NCBI GenBank assembly: GCA_943704525.1
Contig: CALSCQ010002968.1
Span: 1 to 20,717, forward strand
Length of the DNA stretch: 20,717 nucleotides
DNA from: Pigoraptor vietnamica
Taxonomy: Eukaryota > Opisthokonta > Filasterea
Direction: 5' to 3'
Below, piece after piece: positions 3,496 to 20,717 of this stretch. Both the position numbers and the translations under genes were made by a program. How positions within the stretch are numbered: the stretch's first letter is position 1; each line of letters begins with the position of its first letter. The notes beneath the pieces were generated by a model, which saw only the letters and a program-made list of their open reading frames with translations, was not told the origin of the DNA and did no database searches.

Positions 3496-6400
3496 ATGGC
3501 GGACGTCACGTGTCGTGCGCTCGCCGAGCACGACGACATGGCGACGGCCGTGCTTGTGGACGCCGTTTTGGGCTTTCGCACGCACAAGATGCATGCGCGC
3601 TTCCGTCCGCGCAAGACGGACGCCGCGCTCCTGCAGTCCGTTCTCGGCAGCATTCGCGCGCCCGAGGACACCGTGCGCGCCTACCAGCGGCTGCTTGTGG
3701 ACGCGCCGATGTGGTCGCAGTCGCTGGCGCTGAGCGGGGCGCTTGGGACGGGCGGTGTGTACGGGGTGCAGTTTCGCGAGCACGCCCTGCGCTATCTCGC
3801 CATGTACCTCCCCGATGCGGGATACGAAATCACGCTCTGTGAGCGCTACTCGTCGGAGGAGCACCAGGAGGCGAAGGTCCAGGCGACGCGGCGATGGTGG
3901 GAGTGATTGGGAGCGACCTTGCTTCAGTTTGACGCACGGCTGACGTCACTCTGCTGCTCCGTAGGGCGAAGGGGGAGCGCATCGTGCACCTGTGCGGCTG
4001 CATTGCGGAGATACCCCTCGAGGAGGAGGAGGCGTTCCTGCGCCCCGGACAGAACGACTTTAGCGTCATGTATTCGACGCGCAAGGGGTGCGCGCAGCTG
4101 TGGTTGGGGCCTGCGGCATACATCAACCACGGTGCGTGTGCATTGCGGTGTTGTCGCTGCTGTTCTTGTGCTCTTTCTGCGTGGCTGTTGCCTTGCACAT
4201 CAACCGCGGTGCGTGTGATGCATTGCGTTGTGGCTGCTGTTGTGGCTGCTGTTTGTGCTGTGTCGGCTTGCATCATTTGCTGCGTGGCTAAACTGACGTT
4301 CGAATGCGCCGACAGACTGCGATTCCAACTGCAAGGTACGTGTCATGTCGTGGCTGTTGGTTGGGGCCCGTCGTGTTCAGTGAGACATCCACTAGTGTGT
4401 CTCCTGTATCTGTCGTGCGATGCCTAACTGCTGCGTGCGTGTGCGTGGCAGTTTGTGTCGACGGGGCGCAACACGGCGTGCGTCGTGGTGACCCGCGACA
4501 TTGAGCAAGGCGAGGAGATCACGTGCTTTTACGGCAAGAATTTCTTTGGCGAGCGCAATGAGCACTGCCGCTGCGAGACGTGCGAAAGGTGCGTCTGCCG
4601 CGTTGTTGCCGTGCAATTCCCAGGGCGCTCTTGCCACTTCGGTGCCTCTGCTGTGCGTGCGATTGCGTTGCTCACGTGCGCTGCGCAGGCGAGGCGAGGG
4701 CGCATTCCGCGACGAGTCCAAGTCGGAGGCTGCGGAGGGCGCCGAGGTTGAGGGCGGCGACTCGACCAAGCAGAAGTACGCGCTGCGTGGGCGCAAGCGG
4801 CCGCGGTTCGAAGCGCTAGGCGGTGCGTCGCCTGCGCCGGAAGACGAGAGCGGGCGGTCGGACACGACATCGTCGTCTCGGTGCGTGCGACCTAATAGTC
4901 TTGTCCGTGGAGTGGGCTGTTGTGAGAGGGCTTTCGGCCCGTTTGTGTCGTGCGGTTGCTGATATAGTTTCTCTCGCAGAATCGCGCCCATTGGGAGGAC
5001 GCGCGAGGTGGTCTTTGTGAATCCCCTCGACGAGCGCGAGCCATTCTGGTGGCCGGCAATGGTGGGGAGACTGCCTTTGCTGCGTCTGCTGTCGCTGTCG
5101 CCGTGCGTGTTGTTTGGTCCAATGGGATTCTCACAGTGTCTACGTATGGGCGCAGGTTGTGCCCCCGCGGGAGCTTGATGCAAGCATGCCACGCCCAGAC
5201 GAAGGCGACTGCGTCGTGCGTTATTTTGAGGACAACACATAGTGAGTGCGCGCGTGACGTCAGAGCAATGCCCTGCTTCTGACGCCGTGCCACTGCTGTT
5301 CACTAACGCCCTCCCGCGCGCAGTTCGACGGCCGACACCACCGAGCTGCGCATTTTCGCCGAGGACTCGCCCATGTTTGTCGAGTACGCGCGTCGCCTAG
5401 GTGACGATTTCCTTGACAACCGCAATGTGCAGCGCGCCCTGCGCTATCTGCGCACCGGCGCGCTGCCCAAGGGCTTTCGGTGGCCGCGGTGGCAGCCGGA
5501 TGACGTCCCGCGTGTCGCTCGCCCGCCGCGCGCGCAGCCGGCCGATGCGGTGGCTGCGCCGTCGGAAAGCGACGACGAGGACGCGGCAAGGGCGCGGCGG
5601 AGGGCTCAGTTGGCGGCATCCAGGGCGCAGCGGGCGGAGCTCCGAGCGGTGGGTGGCATTGACAAGTGATGGAGCGGTCGCAGAGTGGAGGGGATTTGAG
5701 TGCGCTATTGCGCCATTGAAGCTTTGTTGTCGATTTCTGACGGGTGACTGCGTGCAGGTCACCCCCGCGGCCAAGGCGCCCGTGCGGAAGGGCGAGACAA
5801 AGGGTGCGTTGGTTGTGCAGTTGCCGCGTCAGTTGTCTCGTGTCCCGCATAAATTCCCTTCTGAACCATCGCGGGATGGCGCAGAAACGTCCCCGTCGTC
5901 GGTGCGACGGCGAAGACCCTCGCTTGACTCGGCCAGCGCGGACGAAAAACGCGCCGAAATTCCGCGCAAACGGCGGCGGGTGACGGTGAGTTGGCGAGTG
6001 GCAGCGACGTGTTTTGCAGAATAGAGACGGCTCCTTTGCCGCACTTGTGGCGCGCGTGGCTCACCCGACCCCCTCTGATGTAGAGGAGCACATCGGTCGA
6101 CTCGGACGGTAGCCTTTCCGCGGCGAGCGGATCGAGCCTCGCGTCCGGTGGATCGCGCGTGCCGGGGACGAGTGCGTCGGGAACCCCGCGTGCGGAGCGC
6201 AACGGCGTCCGCACGCGCAGCAGCGCCGCGGGTGCGTTGGCGACTGTGGCGGAGCCTTTGTCGCCCGTCTCTGAAGAGGGGGAGCGGAAGCTGCGTGGGC
6301 GGAAGGCCGCCTCTCGCGCTGTGCGGACGCGGTCTTGGGGACACGCCACGAGCGACGATGCGAAGGCCGTTGCCGTGGCTGCGCGGCGCTCTGCCCGCAT

Positions 6401-6986
6401 CTCCGTCTCATCGACATCGTCGCGCGTTGCTACGGTGGACGAGAAATTGGACGTCGACGACAGGGGCGACGAGGTGGACCGCAGTGTGGCGGAGGGTGCG
6501 CCTTCTCCGGGCGGCGTGCGGATCGTCGTGGAGAGCGAAGAGGAGGAAGAAGACATGCACGTGGACGTTGTTGGTTCACCCCCTGCGTGCGACGGCGTGA
6601 AAGTAAGCTGCGGGGATGCGGCCGCGTGCGACGTGCTGCCCCACGAGCGCCAATCGCGCCGCGTTTCGCCCGAGCAGAAGCGGAGCTGTCCGTCGGCGAA
6701 TGCGGCGCGCGGCACCTCGCGCCCCTTTGGCGACTTTCTCATGTCGAGCATTCTGTCGGACAAGTCGTGGCTGTGGAATCCGCTGATGGGACTGCAACGC
6801 CCCGCGTCGCACGCTTCGTCCGAAGCACCCGGTGAATCTGCGGGCGACGCCATGGACACGGACGAGGACGACGGCGTGGTCACGCTGGCGCCCGCGCACG
6901 ACGCAGCCGCAGCCGCCGCGCCGCAGAGCCGGAAGAGTGTGTATGCGCATCACGCGCGTCTGCCTCTCGGGTCCGGATGGCCGTGA
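3496..6986 (+). CDS. KMT5: SUV4-20/KMT5-type histone H4K20 methyltransferase with PWWP-like domain, 10 exons
   Basis: Predicted nuclear enzyme that di/trimethylates H4 lysine 20 using S-adenosylmethionine. Exons: 3496-3896, 3965-4131, 4316-4335, 4452-4588, 4689-4880, 4980-5061, 5156-5241, 5324-5648, 5758-5985, 6084-6986 (846 residues). The N-terminal SUV4-20 domain starts at once ([15 protein letters not shown], then [14 protein letters not shown]). The SET domain (about 136-240) has [32 protein letters not shown], the NHDCDSNC site at 188-195, [15 protein letters not shown] and the zinc-binding CRCETCERR end. After a charged linker, a PWWP-like module at about 315-375 shows [10 protein letters not shown] and CVVRYFEDN, followed by a helical stretch (RALRYLRTG). 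The remainder is Ser/Arg/acidic and probably disordered, with one hydrophobic island near 761-787. The PWWP part has no ATG of its own and its frame joins exon 5 exactly by splicing, so I read it as one gene. The 5985/6084 junction is less sure: the acceptor ending at 6019 would give an early stop at 6110. Confidence 0.88.
4114..4270 (+). repeat. Imperfect tandem duplication spanning the exon 2/intron 2 junction of KMT5
   Basis: The block CATCAACCACGGTGCGTGTG at 4121-4140 contains the end of exon 2 and its splice donor. It recurs at 4198-4217 as CATCAACCGCGGTGCGTGTG, 77 bp downstream inside the intron. Similarity continues after both copies through CATTGCG and CTGCTGTT-rich sequence. The intron (4132-4315, 184 nt) is therefore long because it contains a duplicate of its own 5' end, including a second good GTGCGT donor at 4209. 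Confidence 0.8.
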
Positions 6987-7373: not shown

Positions 7374-7567
7374 TTATCGGGGTGACGTGAGGAAGCCGCC
7401 CTGGAACGAGTCGGTGAGATCGCCGGGGTGTCGCCGCAGAAGGAAACGAATGTCCTCAAGTACTGCAGGCGATCATACACTGGACTTAGCGCGCATTCAC
7501 GTGCATACGCATTCTTGTGTGCGTTGTGTGTGTGTGTGTGATTGTGTGATTGTGTGTGTGTGTGTGT

Positions 7568-7620
<53 letters not shown>

Positions 7621-8929: not shown

Positions 8930-9334
8930 CTGAGATCACGTGGATGGTGTCACGTGGTGTCACGGGACTCGCCTTCAGGCGACGGCGCCAAACTGTGCTT
9001 TCCGTCGTCTGCTGCCACGCGGCAGGCGTGCGTGGACGGCGGGATGGAGAGCCATGCGCCCGACACACATGCGGCGCACGACGTCCACGTGACACTGGAG
9101 GGCTCGCCCGCGGGCAGCCATGGGGTGTTACACCCTCCCGCACACACGCACGACGCGTCTCCTGCGGCGTCCCCCGCTGCGCCCGAGCAGGTGCGCCGGA
9201 TTGCAGTCTTGCCGCTGGCAGCGCGTGCTCTTCTGAACTCAAGACAGTGCGATCTGTCGCTGCACGCGCGGAGTCAAATATGGCGACCATGTGATTATAT
9301 GTAACGCCTTGGTAACACACTCTTATTGTTGCAG
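8930..9334. promoter_or_regulatory. Divergent region holding the 5' ends of the unrecognised gene and SNAPC4
   Basis: About 405 bp between the first supported exons of two head-to-head genes. Both genes lack a certain start codon, so their first exons and promoters should be here. Several frames are open on both strands and none is convincing. A near-palindrome GGGTGTTACACCC lies at 9123-9135. A Kozak-like ACCATG at 9288 is followed at once by a stop in its frame. Confidence 0.5.
9123..9135. promoter_or_regulatory. Palindromic GGGTGT-T-ACACCC element
   Basis: Six-base arms GGGTGT and ACACCC surround a single T. The left half reads GGGTGTTA, identical to the octamer repeated four times in the PIG-F/KMT5 divergent region. 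Its place in a second divergent intergenic region suggests a binding site for a dimeric factor, but this is inference from two places only. Confidence 0.4.
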
Positions 9335-11158
9335 GCGTCCCTCACGGCGACGCGGCGCGCATTGGCCCTCAACCGCGCCATACAGCAGCGACTACACGCG
9401 CAGCTGCAGCGCATCGAGCATGCCCAGGCGCGCAACACGGAGCTCCAGCGCCGATTCAAGGAACTCGCGACGCAGGCGGCACGGCCGGCCGCTCGACGCG
9501 AAACAATGGGCCTCGCCCGCAAGTTTTTGGGTCCGTACTTTGTGGACGTTCGCGGGGAAACTCCGCCGGATAATGACGACGCAAGGGAAAAGAAGGCGCT
9601 CGCTGCGCATGCGCCGGCAGTGCACCGCTCGCGCAAGTGGACGGATGCCGAGCGTGCGGCGCTGGCGAAGGGCGTGCGGCAGAAGAACCAGGAGCTGCTC
9701 ATGCGCCCGCTGCAGGACGACGCGCGCGCGGGGCTCTCGGGTGCGGAGCTTGCGCGGCGCTTGGATGCGATTCGCAATATGCCGTCGCGCGATCTCGAGA
9801 TGAACGTGCGCGGGATTGACTGGGAGCGGCTCGCGCGGACGCACCTGCCCGGGCGCTCGGGAGTGGACTGCCGGCTCCAGTGGCTGAACAACGACCACCC
9901 GCTCATCAACAATGGGCCGTGGACGCGCGCGGAAGATCGCGCGATTGTGCGGCTTGCGCACGAGCGCGGCGAGCTTCAGTGGGAGGCGATTGCGGAGGCC
10001 GTGGGGACCAACCGCACGGCAGCGCAGTGCCTGTCGCGCTACCAGCGGGCGCTGAATCCCGGCATGCTGCGCTCAAAGTGGACGCCGGAGGAGGACGCGG
10101 CGCTCGCGGCGGCTGTGCGGCGGCACGGGGAGGGCAACTGGCAGCAGGTGGCGTCGGACCTCGAGGGGCGCACTGGGCAGCAGTGCCTGCACCGGTGGCA
10201 GAAGACGCTCGACCCCGGCATTCGCAGGGGCAAGTGGACCGAGGAGGAGGACGGCGCCCTGCGCCGCGCCGTCGATCGCTTTGGCGTCGGCAACTGGTTC
10301 AAGGTGCAGACGCTCGTCCCCGGGCGCACCGACGTGCAGTGCCGCGAGCGGTGGGTCAACGTGCTCGACCCCGCGCTGTGCCACCAGCCGTGGTCGCGCG
10401 AAGAGGACGCGCGGCTGCTCGAGGCCGTGGCGCAATACGGCACGGGGCGCTGGTCGCGGATTGCGCAGGAGCTGCCGCCGCGCACCGATAACCAGTGCTG
10501 GCGGCGGTACAAGAGCCTCATGCCTATCGAGGCAGCCGCCGGCCACCGGCTCGTGCTCAGCGCCGTGGGCGGGCCGCCGAACCGCCGGAAGCGCACGCTG
10601 GACGAAATTGCGCCGCACATGGGCGCGCCCTCCGACAAGCGCCCGCGCGAGGACGGCGGCGCGCACCTGCCCCTCGTGCCGGCGGCGCAATCGCTGGTGG
10701 CGTCCATCCCGCGACCTCCCGTGCCGCCGCAACCGTCGGGCGCACGCCCCGTGTTTAGCGCCACGGCGGTTGAGACGGACGCGGGCGCGGCGACCGCAAT
10801 GTTTGAGGAGGTACGTGCATGTGGTCCGTGTGTACGTGCGCGTGCAGTGGGCCTTCGGCGTATGTGGCGGATGTGCGTCTGATGTGCGCGTGGACTACAG
10901 ATGTTCCGTGCGAACGCGCACCCGGAGGCCCCGCTCGTTGGCATCCCACCCTTGCCGCCGCTCGCCGCGACGGTGTCGGCGCATGCAGCGCTGCAGTTGC
11001 TGCTTGGCGACGCACGCGCACCGGAAGCGGCGCCGCCACCGCAAGTCGATCCCCGCGCCCTCGCCCTGCTGCAAACGCGCTTCCGTGCGCTGTTTGTGTG
11101 GCCGAGTATGCTGGCCGCAGCCGACTTGCAGGCGCCGACGGACGATGCGCCATCATGA
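9335..11158 (+). CDS. SNAPC4: SNAPC4, Myb-repeat subunit of the snRNA-activating protein complex (first exon missing)
   Basis: SNAPC4 is the DNA-binding subunit of SNAPc, which recognises the proximal sequence element of snRNA promoters for RNA polymerases II and III. The large exon 9335-10810 is joined in phase 0 to 10901-11158, giving 577 residues after the acceptor at 9334. The order matches the family: a coiled coil (LNRAIQQRLHAQLQRIEHA), then the SNAPC4 pre-Myb signature FLGPYFVDVRGETPPDND, a half Myb repeat (about 9817-9905) and four full repeats (about 9913-10062, 10075-10218, 10228-10374, 10384-10524), each with W-x(n)-W-x(n)-W spacing such as KWTPEEDAAL and RTGQQCLHRW. That is the 4.5 repeats typical of SNAPC4. 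The C-terminal part is Ala/Pro-rich. No in-frame ATG precedes the coiled coil, and a TTGTTGCAG acceptor ends at 9334, so one or more 5' exons lie upstream. The intron begins GTACGT. Confidence 0.9.
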
Positions 11159-11453: not shown

Positions 11454-12773
11454 CTAGTTGTGCAGCTTGCACCCGGCGCAGTTGACGGGAAGCTCGGCGG
11501 GTGCGTAGATCTCGCGCGCCTTCTGTGCGCCCCCCACGGGCGGCGACGGGCTGACCTTGAGGAAGCCGACGCACCCCTTCTCCAGCCGAAAGAGCGAGTG
11601 GTCCAGCAGCGTGTAGTTGCCCGGCACAGGGACGCCGAACTCGACGACGGTCGTTCCGCCCGCAGGCACGGCGGTCACGTGGATGCCGCGGCTGGGCACG
11701 TCCATGAGGCTGCCCTCGCGGTACACCTTGTCGAAGACGACACCGATGACGTGGAATGACGACACGAGGTTGGGCCCTCCGTTGCCGAAGTAGATGCGCA
11801 CGCGGTCGCCCTGCTTAGCCAGCAGCGGGCTCTCGGTGAGCGCGCCCTCGCGCCCGTTCAGCACGACGTAGAGCGGGTTCTCCGCCACGCCGTCCGTGTA
11901 GCTCGGTATGAGGAGGTCCGACCCTCGCTCGGGCATCTCGGCGTAGATCTCGCTCTGCATGACGTAGTACTCGCGGTCGACCCTGGGCAGCCCCTCCTCC
12001 GGTTCGACGAGGATCAAGCCGTACATACCGTTGGCCACGTGCACGGGCACGGGCGCCGCGGCGCAGTGATACACGTAGAGACCCGCGTACTGCAGCTTGA
12101 AGGCCGCCGCACGCGTCTCGCCCGGCTCGGCGTAGAGTGCCGGGGCGCCGCCGCCCGGTCCGGTGAATGCGTGAAAGTCAATGTTGTGCCCGACACCCGA
12201 CTCGTCCTTGTTCGTGTAGTGCACCTCCACCACGTCGCCGACGCGCGCGCGGATGAAGGGGCCGGGCACGTGGCCGTCGAAGGTCCACATCGGGTAGCGG
12301 TGGCGGGGGCTGACGGGCAGGTTCTCGGACGTCGTGTTCATGGTGACAATCAGGCGCACGGGGTGCTTGCGGGTGATCGGCGGCGGCACTTCCGGTGCGT
12401 ACGTCGTCTTGGCCGCTTCCACGAGCAGTTTTGCGTGCACGTCTTTCACGACGACCTCGTCTGCGCGGTACTCGTGGTGCTCGATCAGCTGCCGCGTCGG
12501 CGCCGAATCGGATGGCTCCGGTCCCCCTTCCACGTCAGCGCTCGCGTGCGTGCGCGCACCCATGTACCAGAGGGTCGCGCCCACGCCCACCGCAGCCCCC
12601 GCCACCTGCGCAGCCCGGCGGACGAACGCCCCGCGCGCACTCCCCGCCCCGGCGGCAGTCGAGAGGCGTGCGACGGACCCCATCAGAGTCACGGGAACGA
12701 GGCGATCGCGACCGGAAGGGCAGCCCCGGCGAGCCACCGTTGCAAGAGTGCGCAGCATGGTGGCAGCCGGCAT
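11454..12773 (-). CDS. nirK: Copper-containing nitrite reductase (AniA-type NirK), mitochondrial, intronless
   Basis: The enzyme reduces nitrite to nitric oxide with electrons from a small carrier such as azurin or cytochrome c. One open frame of 439 residues, ATG 12773 to TAG 11454; a second ATG at 12758 is an alternative start. Residues 1-45 are Arg/Ala/Ser-rich without acids apart from D23, as in a mitochondrial presequence, and 54-71 is a possible membrane anchor. Two cupredoxin domains follow. All copper ligands can be placed: type 1 His196, Cys237, His245, Met250 (in HNIDFHA and YHCAAAPVPVHVANGM); type 2 His201, His236, His392; catalytic Asp199 and His341. The short type 1 loop ending ANGMYGLILVEP is the AniA class. 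The tail ends NCAGCKLHN, with a CxxC pair. It is the only gene here without an intron. An upstream TATA-like AATATAATAA is at 12843-12832. Confidence 0.93.
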   Translation of the reverse strand: MPAATMLRTLATVARRGCPSGRDRLVPVTLMGSVARLSTAAGAGSARGAFVRRAAQVAGAAVGVGATLWYMGARTHASADVEGGPEPSDSAPTRQLIEHHEYRADEVVVKDVHAKLLVEAAKTTYAPEVPPPITRKHPVRLIVTMNTTSENLPVSPRHRYPMWTFDGHVPGPFIRARVGDVVEVHYTNKDESGVGHNIDFHAFTGPGGGAPALYAEPGETRAAAFKLQYAGLYVYHCAAAPVPVHVANGMYGLILVEPEEGLPRVDREYYVMQSEIYAEMPERGSDLLIPSYTDGVAENPLYVVLNGREGALTESPLLAKQGDRVRIYFGNGGPNLVSSFHVIGVVFDKVYREGSLMDVPSRGIHVTAVPAGGTTVVEFGVPVPGNYTLLDHSLFRLEKGCVGFLKVSPSPPVGGAQKAREIYAPAELPVNCAGCKLHN

Positions 12774-12831
12774 CGCCTTGCACGTCCTCCCCTTCCCCTC
12801 TCACCCTTCACCCTCCGTGTTTCGGTGTGGG

Positions 12832-16659: not shown

Positions 16660-19600
16660 ATGGAGGGTTCCGAAGCCCACCTCCAGTGCCCGCATTGCGC
16701 GGCAGCGTGAGTGACGCACTTTCTGTGCGCTTGGAGATGCCCTTTGCCCCAGCTCCTCAGCACTCGACTGGTGGGGATCTAACCCCTCCGACTGCCCGTA
16801 CAGGATCAAGCCCAAAAACCCCCTCCCCTCCGGCGTGTACTCTGGCCGCTGCAAGAGCTGCGGCAAGTCGTTCACCTTTCGCGCTGTGCGTGCGAGTGAA
16901 GATGGCGCGACGCAGCGGGTTGCGCGCGCCCCTTCGGACGCCGCGGCGGTCTTTGCGGGGTCGTCTGAGCTCAACTTTGTGCTCAACGGACAGAACGTGC
17001 GCATCACGAACCCCGACCCTAGCATGACGCTGAACGAGTTCATTCGCTCGCGGCGCAATCTCACGGGGACGAAGCGCTCGTGCAACGAGGGCGGCTGCGG
17101 CGCCTGCGTCGTCGCCATGTCGCGCGATGGAACGACCGTCGCCGTCAATTCCGTGGGTGTCGTTTAGTATCGGAGCGAAAGTGTGGTACAGTGTGTGTGT
17201 GTATGTGTGTGCGTGCGTGCTGTGTGGCGTGCGCTGAGATTTCTGTGCGCTGTTCGTAGTGCCTGAAGCCTCTCTGCGCCGTCGACGGATGGACAGTGAC
17301 GACGACCGAGGGCATCGGCAGGTGCGTTTGAGACCCCTTGTGTGCCGCCACTGTGTTACGCTCAGCCGCCCTAATGTAACAACCTGTTACCCACGCAGCA
17401 ACAAGGCCGGCTTCCACCCCGTGCAGGAGAAGATTGCGTCGGGCAACGGCAGCCAGTGCGGCTTCTGCACGCCGGGCATGGTCATGTCGATGTACAGGTG
17501 CGTGCGCCGTGCGTGCTGCTCACGTGGGGGTGCGCCGTGCGTGCTGCTCACGTGGGCGTGCGCTGTGCGTATTGTGTCGCGTGGGGGCGTGTACCGTGGC
17601 GTGTGGTTATGCGCGTGCAATTGAGTTTGAATGCGGCCATTGTCAGCCCCCGAAAGTGGCTAAAATCGCCCATTCTCCACCCGCAGCCTTCTGCAGAGCA
17701 ACCCCACGCCCACGATGCAGGACGTCGAGGACGCCTTCGACGGCAACATCTGCCGCTGCACGGGATACCGCCCCATCCTCGAGGCATTCAAGTCGTTCGC
17801 CATCGACGCCCCGCACCACGCGACCTACGGTGGCATTGCCGATATTGAGGAGGCTGCGCGCAAGGCCTCTGCGGGCGGCGTGTGCGCGTCTGCCGCCGGC
17901 GGGTGCAGCTCTGGCGGGTGCGGCTCTGGCGGCTGCGGGTGCGCCAAGTCGGGCTCGTGCGGGTCGAAGGGCGCTTGCGGTGACATGCCCACGTGCTCGT
18001 TCCGCCCCATCGGCACCAAGTGCCCTGGCGTGGCGGCGTGCAACGTCCCGTCGACGTCACTCTCGGGCGGCTGCGTGCCGTGTGCGTCCGGTGTGGGTGC
18101 CGTGCCCGCGCGCGCACTCCGCTTCGCCGCGAACGGCGTCACGTGGTACCAGCCGACGACGCTGACGGACGCATTTGTGCTGATGCGCCAGCACGCGGGG
18201 GCCTACAAGCTCGTCGCCGGTAACACGGGCACGGGCATCTTCAAGGACGACAAGGCGCCCGTCCTCATCGACATCCGCTGCATTCCCGAGCTCTCGGTCG
18301 TTTCGGCGGACGCGCAGAAGGGCGTCACCATTGGCGCCGCCGTGACGATTACCGGCGTCATTGCGACGCTCACGGCGAACTCTGCGCTTTCGGCGTCGTA
18401 CGCCACGGCCGTCGCGCACCTCAAGAAGATCGCCGGCAAGCCCGTCCGCAACGTGAGTGGCGGCTCGCTTCATTCTTGCGTTGTTCTTGTTTTAATGGCT
18501 GTGTGCGTGTGCGTGTGTGTGCGTGTGTGCTTATCTTCCAACGTGAGTCGGACCGTACTTGTTTTGCGGTGTTGTGTTTCTAACGGCGTTTGTGTGTGTG
18601 CGCTCCTGCAGGCGGCCACGTGGGCCGGCAACCTGATGCTCGTGCACAACCACGCCGACTTCCCCTCGGACATGTGCACCGTGCTCGCGGGCCTCGGCGC
18701 GACCGTGCGCGTGGACTCGTGCACGGGCACGTCGATGGTGGGGGTTATGGACCTCCTCACGCTCGACATGACGGGTCGCATCATCACTTCGGTGACGATT
18801 CCCGTGCTCGCCGCCGACGAGGTGTTCCAGTCGTACAAGGTCATGCCCCGCCACACGGTCAGTGCCCTCCGCCGCACACTTTGATGTCGCCAGCTTGATT
18901 CAGAGACGGATGTTTGTCGACCCTGCCGTGTCTCTGAAAGAGAGAATACCCTCGGCTGTGTCGTGGTTGGGTATGTTCTCACGTGACGTTTGGCCCGTTT
19001 TGCAGAACGCGCACGCGTACGTGAACGCGGCCTTCCGCTTCAAGCTGGACGCGTCCCAGCGCATCTCGTCGCCCGTGCTCATCTACGGCGGCATTGGCCC
19101 TGAGCTTGTGCGCGCGTCGGCGACCGAGGCGTATCTCAGCGGGCAGTCGCTCACGGACGTGACGCTCGGCGGGGCGGTGACGAGCCTCATGAAGGAGCTT
19201 GTGCCTGACAACCCGCCGGTGGCGGCGAGTCCGGACTACCGCAAGGGCCTCGCGGCGTCTCTCCTCTTCAAGTTTATCGTGAAGGTAAGTGTTTTTCTGT
19301 GGCCATTGTCGCACCGACGTGCACGTCCCTCCCTCCCATCGACACTGCGCGATGCGGTGCTTCCACATCAATCCTCCGTGAATTTCGGTCTATTCGTTCA
19401 AAAGCTGAGCTGCGTCCCCATCGCAGCTCGTGGGCGCCAAGGCGGACCCGCGGGTGCAGTCGGCTGGCACGGAGTTTGTGCGGCCGGTGTCTTCGGGTGT
19501 CCAGTCGTTCACGTCGGACCAGTCTGAGTACCCCGTCTCGCAGCCCGTCGTCAAGCTCTCGTCGCACATTCAGGTGCGTCGTGCGCGTCGGCAGCAAAAA

Positions 19601-20599
19601 AAAAGCCCAAATGTCACTGTTGTAGTACACACTGTGTGCGCTGCGGTCACTTGTGCTCACAACTTACTCCTTGCTTGCTGCAGGCGAGCGGTGAGGCGCA
19701 GTACACGGAGGATATTCCCCCGCCCTCGAACACTCTCTTCGGCGCCTTCGTCATTACGACTGTCGGCTCTGCGACGATTGCGTCGATCGATGCCACGGCG
19801 GCGCTGGTGCGTGCGCATTCTGTGTGCCAGTCGTTACCGTGTGTTATGTGCCAGTCGTTACCGCGTATGTTGTGTGCCTTGGACGCGCCCACCCGCCTGC
19901 TTTCGGGGCTGACTTGCGTGCTTGGCTGTCGCAGGCGATGCCCGGCGTCGTGCGCTTCCTGACGGCGAAGGACATTCCCGCGAAGGGCCAGAACAACTGC
20001 AGTCCGGACACGCCCGAGGAGCTCTTCTGCTCTGGCACCGTGCTGTATGCCGGTCAATCGGTCGGACTCATCGTCGCCGACACGCAGGCGCACGCGGACG
20101 CCGCCGCCAAGGCCGTGGTGGTCACTTACACGAACGTGCAGAAGCCCATCCTCACGATCCAGGACGCCGTCGCCGCGAAGAAGTTTTTTGACAACCCCAT
20201 TCCGCCCCTCGCGATGGGCGACGTCGACAAGGCCTTCCCCACGTGCGCGCACGTGATTGAGGGGTCGGTCGAGTGCGGCAGCCAGTACCACTTCCACCTG
20301 GAGACGCAGGTGACGCTCGCCGTGCCCGAGGACAACGGCGGCTTCACGATCCACTCTGCCGCGCAGTGGCCTGACTACGTGCAGAAGTCGGTGTCGCAGA
20401 CGACGGGCGTCCCCATCAACATGGTGTCGGTCGAGGTCAAGCGCGTGGGCGGCGCATACGGCGGCAAGATCACGCGCAACCTGTCGACGGCGTCGGCGGC
20501 GGCGGTCGCTGCGTCGGTGCTCGGGTGCACCGTGCGCGTCGCGGTGAACCTCGAGACGAACATGGCGATGATTGGAAAGCGCCACCCCTTCCTCGCCAA
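16660..20599 (+). CDS. XDH: Xanthine dehydrogenase/aldehyde oxidase family enzyme with N-terminal zinc ribbon (3' end beyond window)
   Basis: Molybdenum hydroxylase oxidising purines or aldehydes. Exons: 16660-16706, 16804-17152, 17260-17321, 17399-17497, 17687-18452, 18612-18857, 19006-19284, 19427-19573, 19684-19806, 19935-20599, giving 927 residues before the frame leaves the window. Residues 10-35 form a zinc ribbon (CPHC, CKSC). The plant-type 2Fe-2S domain has Cys109, 114, 117, 133 (CNEGGCGAC). The second 2Fe-2S domain has QCGFCTPG at 172-179 and [10 protein letters not shown] from 207. A linker with 12 cysteines (252-318) leads to the FAD domain ([31 protein letters not shown]). The Moco domain starts near 655 ([51 protein letters not shown]). 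The last exon ends HPFLAK at a GTGAGC donor and continues beyond the window. QYHF instead of QEHF recalls insect aldehyde oxidases, so the substrate is open. Confidence 0.93.
17503..17587 (+). repeat. 28-bp minisatellite, three copies, in XDH intron 4
   Basis: The unit TGCGCCGTGCGTGCTGCTCA plus CGTGGGGG spans 17503-17530, is repeated almost exactly at 17531-17558, and appears in decayed form at 17559-17587. The array begins five bases after the splice donor at 17498, and each unit contains donor-like GTGCG words. The intron is 189 nt (17498-17686). Confidence 0.85.
19824..19875 (+). repeat. 24-bp direct repeat in XDH intron 9
   Basis: GTGCCAGTCGTTACCG occurs at 19824 and again at 19848. The two copies follow each other directly and then diverge into GTGTGTTAT and CGTATGTTGT. 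The pair is wholly inside the 128-nt intron 19807-19934. Confidence 0.85.
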
Positions 20600-20616
20600 G
20601 TGAGCGTCGCATGCGG

Positions 20617-20618
<2 letters not shown>

Positions 20619-20687
<69 letters not shown>

Positions 20688-20717
20688 GTGTGTGTGTGTG
20701 TGTGTTTGTGTGTGTGT
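20619..20717 (+). repeat. (GT)n microsatellite in XDH intron 10, running off the window
   Basis: A GT tract starts 19 bases after the donor at 20600 and runs to the window edge, with single interruptions near 20686 and 20705. It belongs to the intron that should precede the exon encoding the YKVGF-type continuation of XDH. Confidence 0.93.

Follow-up and report, generated by a model that had tools for sequence, protein, structure and literature searches.

How SUV4-20 enzymes find chromatin, and why loss of ARID4A/B lowers trimethylation of histone H4 at lysine 20 (H4K20me3), are to our knowledge open questions. Both are touched by a gene on the plus strand (positions 3496-6986) of a 20,717-nucleotide stretch of the filasterean Pigoraptor vietnamica (contig CALSCQ010002968.1; the whole stretch is called the window below), where exons of a SUV4-20 methyltransferase are followed by exons of a PWWP-class domain. 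Do these exons form one protein, and to which type does its PWWP belong? The exons join into a ten-exon gene with GT-AG introns of 68-184 bases and compatible phases, giving an 846-aa product. We consider it probable that this product is a single-chain SUV4-20 (KMT5B/C-type) H4K20 di/trimethylase with an ARID4 (RBBP1, RBB1NT)-type PWWP directly behind it, which would tether the enzyme to nucleosomes. Read from sequence are the gene model, the identification as SUV4-20, the assignment of the PWWP to the ARID4 type, the intron positions shared with a paralogue and the PWWP-less ARID4 described below.

As shown by comparison with solved structures, the SET part matched 70 sequences of the PDB, the ten best of which were all KMT5B/C (E values from 3.9e-79 to 6.6e-73); the next was KMT2D at 3.8e-5. 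The best solved relative was KMT5B (3.9e-79), and the alignment to 7yrd covered residues 4-250 including the N-terminal domain and the post-SET cysteine cluster. Altogether the similarity to KMT5 spans residues 4 to approximately 302 and takes in the N-terminal domain, the SET domain, the post-SET cysteines and the KYxLR stretch. Exons 1-5 thus encode, as judged from these alignments, an H4K20 methyltransferase of the SUV4-20/KMT5B type. The 32.5-Mb assembly (1395 contigs), which is eukaryotic judging by its introns and histones, was searched for a second SUV4-20 and none was found: 11 candidates were scored, with 9 matches, and the matches to the SET part all lay within the window. Histone H4 of this genome is 98% identical to that of human and keeps K20 in AKRHRKILRDN, and KMT5A is encoded on another contig (C404). 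The monomethylated substrate of a SUV4-20 enzyme can therefore be made in this organism.

The PWWP-class domain occupies approximately residues 313-411 and is encoded by exons 6-8. In Pfam scans of the whole protein, RBB1NT (PF08169) was matched at 2.4e-6 with 28 bits (cut-off 25) over positions 8-94 of its 94, and PWWP (PF00855) at 4.4e-6 with 27.5 bits (cut-off 25.6) over positions 13-63 of its 93; for the domain alone the RBB1NT match improved to 1.8e-7. Apart from these two only SET passed its cut-off, and the protein is without the Tudor, ARID and chromobarrel domains of ARID4. RBB1NT is described as a domain of fly Hat-trick, an orthologue of ARID4 (PMC5844294), and a second source ascribes Tudor, PWWP, ARID, chromobarrel and R2 domains to both ARID4A and ARID4B (PMC8038949). 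In a control scan the PWWP segment of ARID4A scored 118.6 bits for RBB1NT and 20.2 bits for PWWP. This score, together with the domain descriptions, indicates that RBB1NT and the ARID4 PWWP are two names for one domain. Trimmed segments of Pdp1 and NSD3 gave no RBB1NT match at E values up to 10, and DNMT3B gave a weak one (15 bits, 0.027). Four other PWWP matches were found in the genome; no RBB1NT match was obtained in the three single-exon frames scanned (two at E up to 10, one at E up to 0.01), the fourth, on C284, being left out.

A profile was built from the window domain and a second copy of it, found at the start of contig C1027. Among 177,635 distinct PDB sequences this profile placed ARID4A first (2yrv, 0.0014; also 6l87, 0.0092, and 7v8n, 0.010), with an alignment that spanned the domain including the C-terminal motif QKA..L.T...P. 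The likeness to the PWWP of ARID4A/ARID4B (RBBP1) is one of domain type including the C-terminal extension; the two differ in their surroundings, as the window domain sits on a methyltransferase and that of ARID4 beside Tudor and ARID. They also differ at two residues in the profile-search alignment, where the window domain has W330 and Y356 and ARID4A has Y and S. From these comparisons, the reading that suits the domain best is a PWWP distantly related to that of ARID4, not one of the Pdp1 type. The kinship is called distant and profile-based because single-sequence searches, and human ARID4A alone, fail to reveal it. Six-frame searches of the whole genome with RBB1NT or the human ARID4A PWWP gave no match and missed the window's own exons too, so that they do not show absence and the count of such domains in this genome is a lower bound. 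No relatives were found on viral and prokaryote contigs.

The copy on C1027 is 48% identical to the window domain over the aligned part. Its exon corresponding to exon 7 of the window gene has the same start, end and phase, and both intron positions within the domain are thus shared; an extra intron at 505-622 interrupts the copy where exon 8 of the window runs unbroken. In the region C1027:165-2050 (L038) the domain is followed by two fingers, a GATA-like one that stays under its cut-off and a PHD one that passes it, apparently in one gene that is cut by the contig start. A search for the missing 5' half of this gene did not find it; the one other match to the WWPA pattern, on C1333, lies inside its contig, reaches only 0.39 with the local profile and has no further PWWP features by eye. 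On the copy itself RBB1NT outscored PWWP (21.1 against 16.3 bits). C1107 (6005-8080, L054) has a SET exon of Set1/KMT2-like appearance, as judged by eye. Upstream of it lies a GATA-like finger (1.7e-4, below cut-off) that is similar, together with its linker, to the GATA portion of the gene on C1027.

A gene on C774 (3441-5980; L053, L027) encodes an N-terminus matching the double Tudor of ARID4B (2.5e-34) and of ARID4A (8.5e-26), followed in phase by exons for an ARID (1.6e-22) and a Tudor-knot chromobarrel (3.2e-14). By its Tudor part and its domain order, the predicted protein is an ARID4 orthologue. Taken by itself, its ARID part comes out a little closer to ARID1B (8.7e-12) and ARID3A (1e-11) than to ARID4A (5.1e-11), and its chromobarrel matches L3MBTL3 and MRG15 ahead of ARID4A (3.2e-5). 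In ARID4A the PWWP stands just before the ARID; in 7v8n the PWWP comprises residues 14-101, and the C774 protein aligns from 111. The Tudor alignment of the C774 protein ends at residue 150 and the ARID alignment begins at residue 150, which leaves no PWWP between them. Two introns of 116 and 146 bases (262 bases together) separate the Tudor and ARID exons. Neither RBB1NT nor PWWP was matched in a Pfam scan of the C774 protein. The local profile, which retrieves both of the copies it was built from by construction, found nothing on C774 1-9000 at E values up to 10, and with ARID4A alone only two matches at the level of chance were obtained in that interval (E 7.1 and 7.4), of which one lay between Tudor and ARID. 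The ARID4-type PWWP seems, from these gene models, to be present on SUV4-20 and on a GATA/PHD protein and to be missing from ARID4.

Several observations weigh against an ARID4-type tether. The scores of RBB1NT and PWWP are close for the domain alone (31.6 and 31.3 bits), and a single-sequence search of the PDB gave no significant match (DNMT3B, 0.3; ARID4A, 0.39; NSD3, 1.1 and 1.3). In the profile search DNMT3B, at 0.0064, falls between the ARID4A chains, and its score is the sum of two weak copies of 8.8 bits each. Human ARID4A alone does not retrieve the window exons. The C1027 copy is below both cut-offs, and the toxin family Ntox8, also below its cut-off, scores equally on it (21.3 bits); we take the Ntox8 match for chance. 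Exon 7 is without codon bias (-0.05 bits per codon) and rests on homology; it is backed by its counterpart in the C1027 paralogue. The methyl-lysine cage appears incomplete, W330 and Y356 being aromatic and P327 not, in an alignment by eye with cage positions taken from Pdp1 and DNMT3. Two of three such positions are aromatic, more than in ARID4A under the same alignment. Finally, the domain is net acidic, with 13 K+R and 19 D+E, so that it has no evident DNA-binding surface and a purely DNA-binding role is less likely.

Three other explanations were weighed. One of them concerns the junction between exons 5 and 6: SUV4-20 might stop after exon 5, or retain intron 5 and end at the stop codon at 4960-4962, while exons 6-10 would be part of a different transcript. 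The last residue of exon 5 is 305, approximately eight residues before the domain starts, and the two exons are only 99 bases apart. The splice sites of intron 5 are strong: a matrix derived from 15 other introns (4 in this gene, 6 in C774 and 5 in C1027) puts its donor in the 98.3rd percentile of the 1537 GT sites and its acceptor in the 99.9th of the 1018 AG sites of the window's plus strand; the corresponding values are 93.1 and 86.1 for intron 6, and 98.8 and 84.5 for intron 7. With a codon table built from 1322 codons of three other genes, intron 5 comes out as non-coding, at approximately -1 bit per codon whichever frame is read, versus +0.47 and +0.33 in the flanking exons. The frame of exon 6 is closed upstream by the stop at 4960-4962 and contains no ATG before its last codon (5059-5061). 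A separate PWWP gene would, on these coordinates, have little room for its beginning between exons 5 and 6. The sequence-only reading of this locus had stated that the SUV4-20 unit is continued in phase by PWWP exons that have no start of their own; the phases are indeed compatible throughout the 846-aa product, and the closed frame is as described. Read-through of intron 5 would meet the stop and could yield a short isoform, and a start for the PWWP in an unseen upstream exon is conceivable when judged from the DNA, so that we hold two genes to be very unlikely rather than impossible. A separate gene for the PWWP exons was rejected on the phases, the closed frame and the codon and splice scores of the junction. 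We infer that the ten exons are transcribed into one mRNA.

The other two explanations accept the fusion and concern the domain. It might be a general PWWP that scores as RBB1NT by chance or convergence, a one-off product of domain shuffling that is not linked to ARID4. The close scores of the two Pfam models fit this, as does the failure of single-sequence searches to single out ARID4A, and the domain is mobile within this genome, a paralogous copy being present in a different, GATA/PHD protein. Against it, the alignments of both copies run to the end of the RBB1NT model, the C-terminal motif is common to ARID4A, and the ARID4 orthologue is without its PWWP; we regard a general PWWP as unlikely. 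The sequence-only reading had favoured another view, with a reader like Pdp1 joined to Set9/SUV4-20, and had taken the fusion as a prediction of physical cooperation between Set9 and Pdp1; on this view the PWWP part would work by binding methylated H4K20 and DNA. In fission yeast Pdp1 is described as present in the Kmt5 (Set9) complex and required for H4K20 methylation (PMC10553808), and its PWWP is described as binding H4K20me3 and DNA (PMC6222470). Pdp1 does turn up in the two-copy profile search, and W330 and Y356 stand at positions that are aromatic in Pdp1 by the cage numbering used above. However, it ranks last of five in that search, at 0.22, behind ARID4A (0.0014) and DNMT3B (0.0064), and its alignment stops where the C-terminal motif begins; RBB1NT does not match the Pdp1 segment, and the window domain is net acidic. 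Pdp1 kinship was rejected as the best reading on this ranking and on the absence of an RBB1NT match, and we judge a Pdp1-type reader to be improbable. The proposal that writer and reader are joined in one protein is thus retained, at the level of sequence, for SUV4-20 and a PWWP-class domain, and its parallel to Pdp1 is not. Since the domain is closest to the PWWP of ARID4A, the fusion speaks for a link of SUV4-20 with ARID4 rather than of Set9 with Pdp1.

Under the preferred reading of an ARID4-type PWWP on SUV4-20, the SET part would convert H4K20me1, made by the genome's KMT5A, to the di- and trimethylated states. The PWWP would most likely hold the enzyme on nucleosomes through a histone tail and/or DNA, as an in-chain tether for H4K20me2/3. 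It may thereby supply in cis an anchoring to chromatin that animals obtain in trans from ARID4.

The features of the gene are listed in Table 1. The window has a G+C content of 64%. In-frame codon scores are positive for exons 1-6, 8 and 10 and close to zero for exons 7 and 9. Exons 9-10 are provisional because their acceptors are weak, and the frame of exon 8 could alternatively continue to a stop at 5667-5669.

Table 1. Exons of the predicted SUV4-20-PWWP gene and the intron at its writer/PWWP junction (window coordinates; codon scores in bits per codon).
Feature	Position	Strand	Content	Support
Exon 1	3496-3896	+	Residues 1-133, with the initiating ATG: KMT5 N-terminal domain and beginning of SET	KMT5B alignment from residue 4; codon score +0.53
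Exon 2	3965-4131	+	SET core, 21 protein letters (not shown)	
Exon 3	4316-4335	+	20-base micro-exon, (INH)DCDSNCK	Phases fit on both sides
Exon 4	4452-4588	+	End of SET and post-SET CRCETCE	
Exon 5	4689-4880	+	RRGEGAF, then KMT5B-like C-terminal stretch with KYALR at 271; similarity to residue 302	8t9f alignment 29-302; codon score +0.47
Intron 5	4881-4979	+	Writer/PWWP junction, 99 bases	Splice-site scores, codon score
Exon 6	4980-5061	+	First part of PWWP: TREVV at 313, FWWP at 328-331	Codon score +0.33
Exon 7	5156-5241	+	VVPP..VRYFEDN, VRYFED at 354	Both ends coincide with exon ends of the C1027 paralogue; codon score -0.05
Exon 8	5324-5648	+	RBB1NT/PWWP C-terminal extension, 18 protein letters (not shown) from 396, then charged tail	Alignment reaches the last position of the RBB1NT model at residue 411; motif common to C1027 and ARID4A
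Exon 9 (less certain)	5758-5985	+	Low-complexity basic tail	Codon score 0.01; acceptor 75.7th percentile
Exon 10 (less certain)	6084-6986	+	Low-complexity charged tail to the stop (TGA at 6984-6986)	300-codon open frame; codon score +0.24, total 71.9 bits; acceptor 50.1st percentile

Other genes of the window were noted in passing. An open frame at 9305-10882 encodes four Myb repeats (PF00249, 3.6e-67). On the minus strand at 11454-12800 lies a frame of 448 codons in which two multicopper oxidase domains are matched (PF07732, PF07731); by its appearance the product may be a protein like copper nitrite reductase, perhaps with a mitochondrial leader. From approximately 16900 to 20700 there is an intron-split gene of the xanthine dehydrogenase/aldehyde oxidase type (two parts matched, start set by eye) that probably runs off the window end. 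A long intergenic GT microsatellite is found at 7530-7620, and similar repeats occur in frames of L025, L028 and L040 on other contigs.

The predicted protein resembles KMT5B/KMT5C (SUV420H1/H2) in the N-terminal domain, the SET domain, the post-SET cysteines and the KYxLR-type C-terminal stretch, over residues 4-302. It differs by the PWWP directly behind them, and we know of no PWWP in the animal enzymes KMT5B/C. A term search for PWWP in the text of a review of KMT5B/C enzymes gave no hit (PMC9102147). NSD1-3 and plant ATX likewise have PWWP and SET within one protein, and the source on them does not use the term SUV4; in ATX the PWWP precedes the SET domain (PMC3457860). The same order is found in this genome's own NSD-like gene on C611. 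NSD1-3 and ATX are H3 methyltransferases of other SET classes. Among the titles and abstract openings listed from the open-licence literature no report of SUV4-20 with PWWP in one chain was found. Fission yeast Set9 with Pdp1 is alike in that an H4K20 methyltransferase works with a PWWP domain; there the two are separate chains and here one, and the window domain is of another PWWP subtype. The source on the Kmt5 complex also reports that Zymoseptoria lacks a true Pdp1 orthologue (PMC10553808).

The fact that a SUV4-20 enzyme carries the PWWP that is lacking from the ARID4 orthologue of the same genome is fusion-type (Rosetta-stone) evidence, and as read from these genes it fits a direct link between ARID4 and SUV4-20. 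Loss of Arid4a/Arid4b in mouse is described in a review as lowering H4K20me3 at the imprinting centre of Prader-Willi syndrome (PMC6947649). A screen that predicts binders of the nucleosome acidic patch is reported to place KMT5A, KMT5B, ARID4A and ARID4B all among its ten highest ranks (PMC12341937). It is possible, and we suggest it only tentatively, that the ARID4-type PWWP serves an ARID4-SUV4-20 partnership on whichever chain it stands, having moved from ARID4 to SUV4-20 here or in the reverse direction on the animal side, with ARID4 reading and SUV4-20 writing H4K20 methylation in one assembly. If true, such a partnership would explain why H4K20me3 drops in mice upon loss of ARID4A/B.

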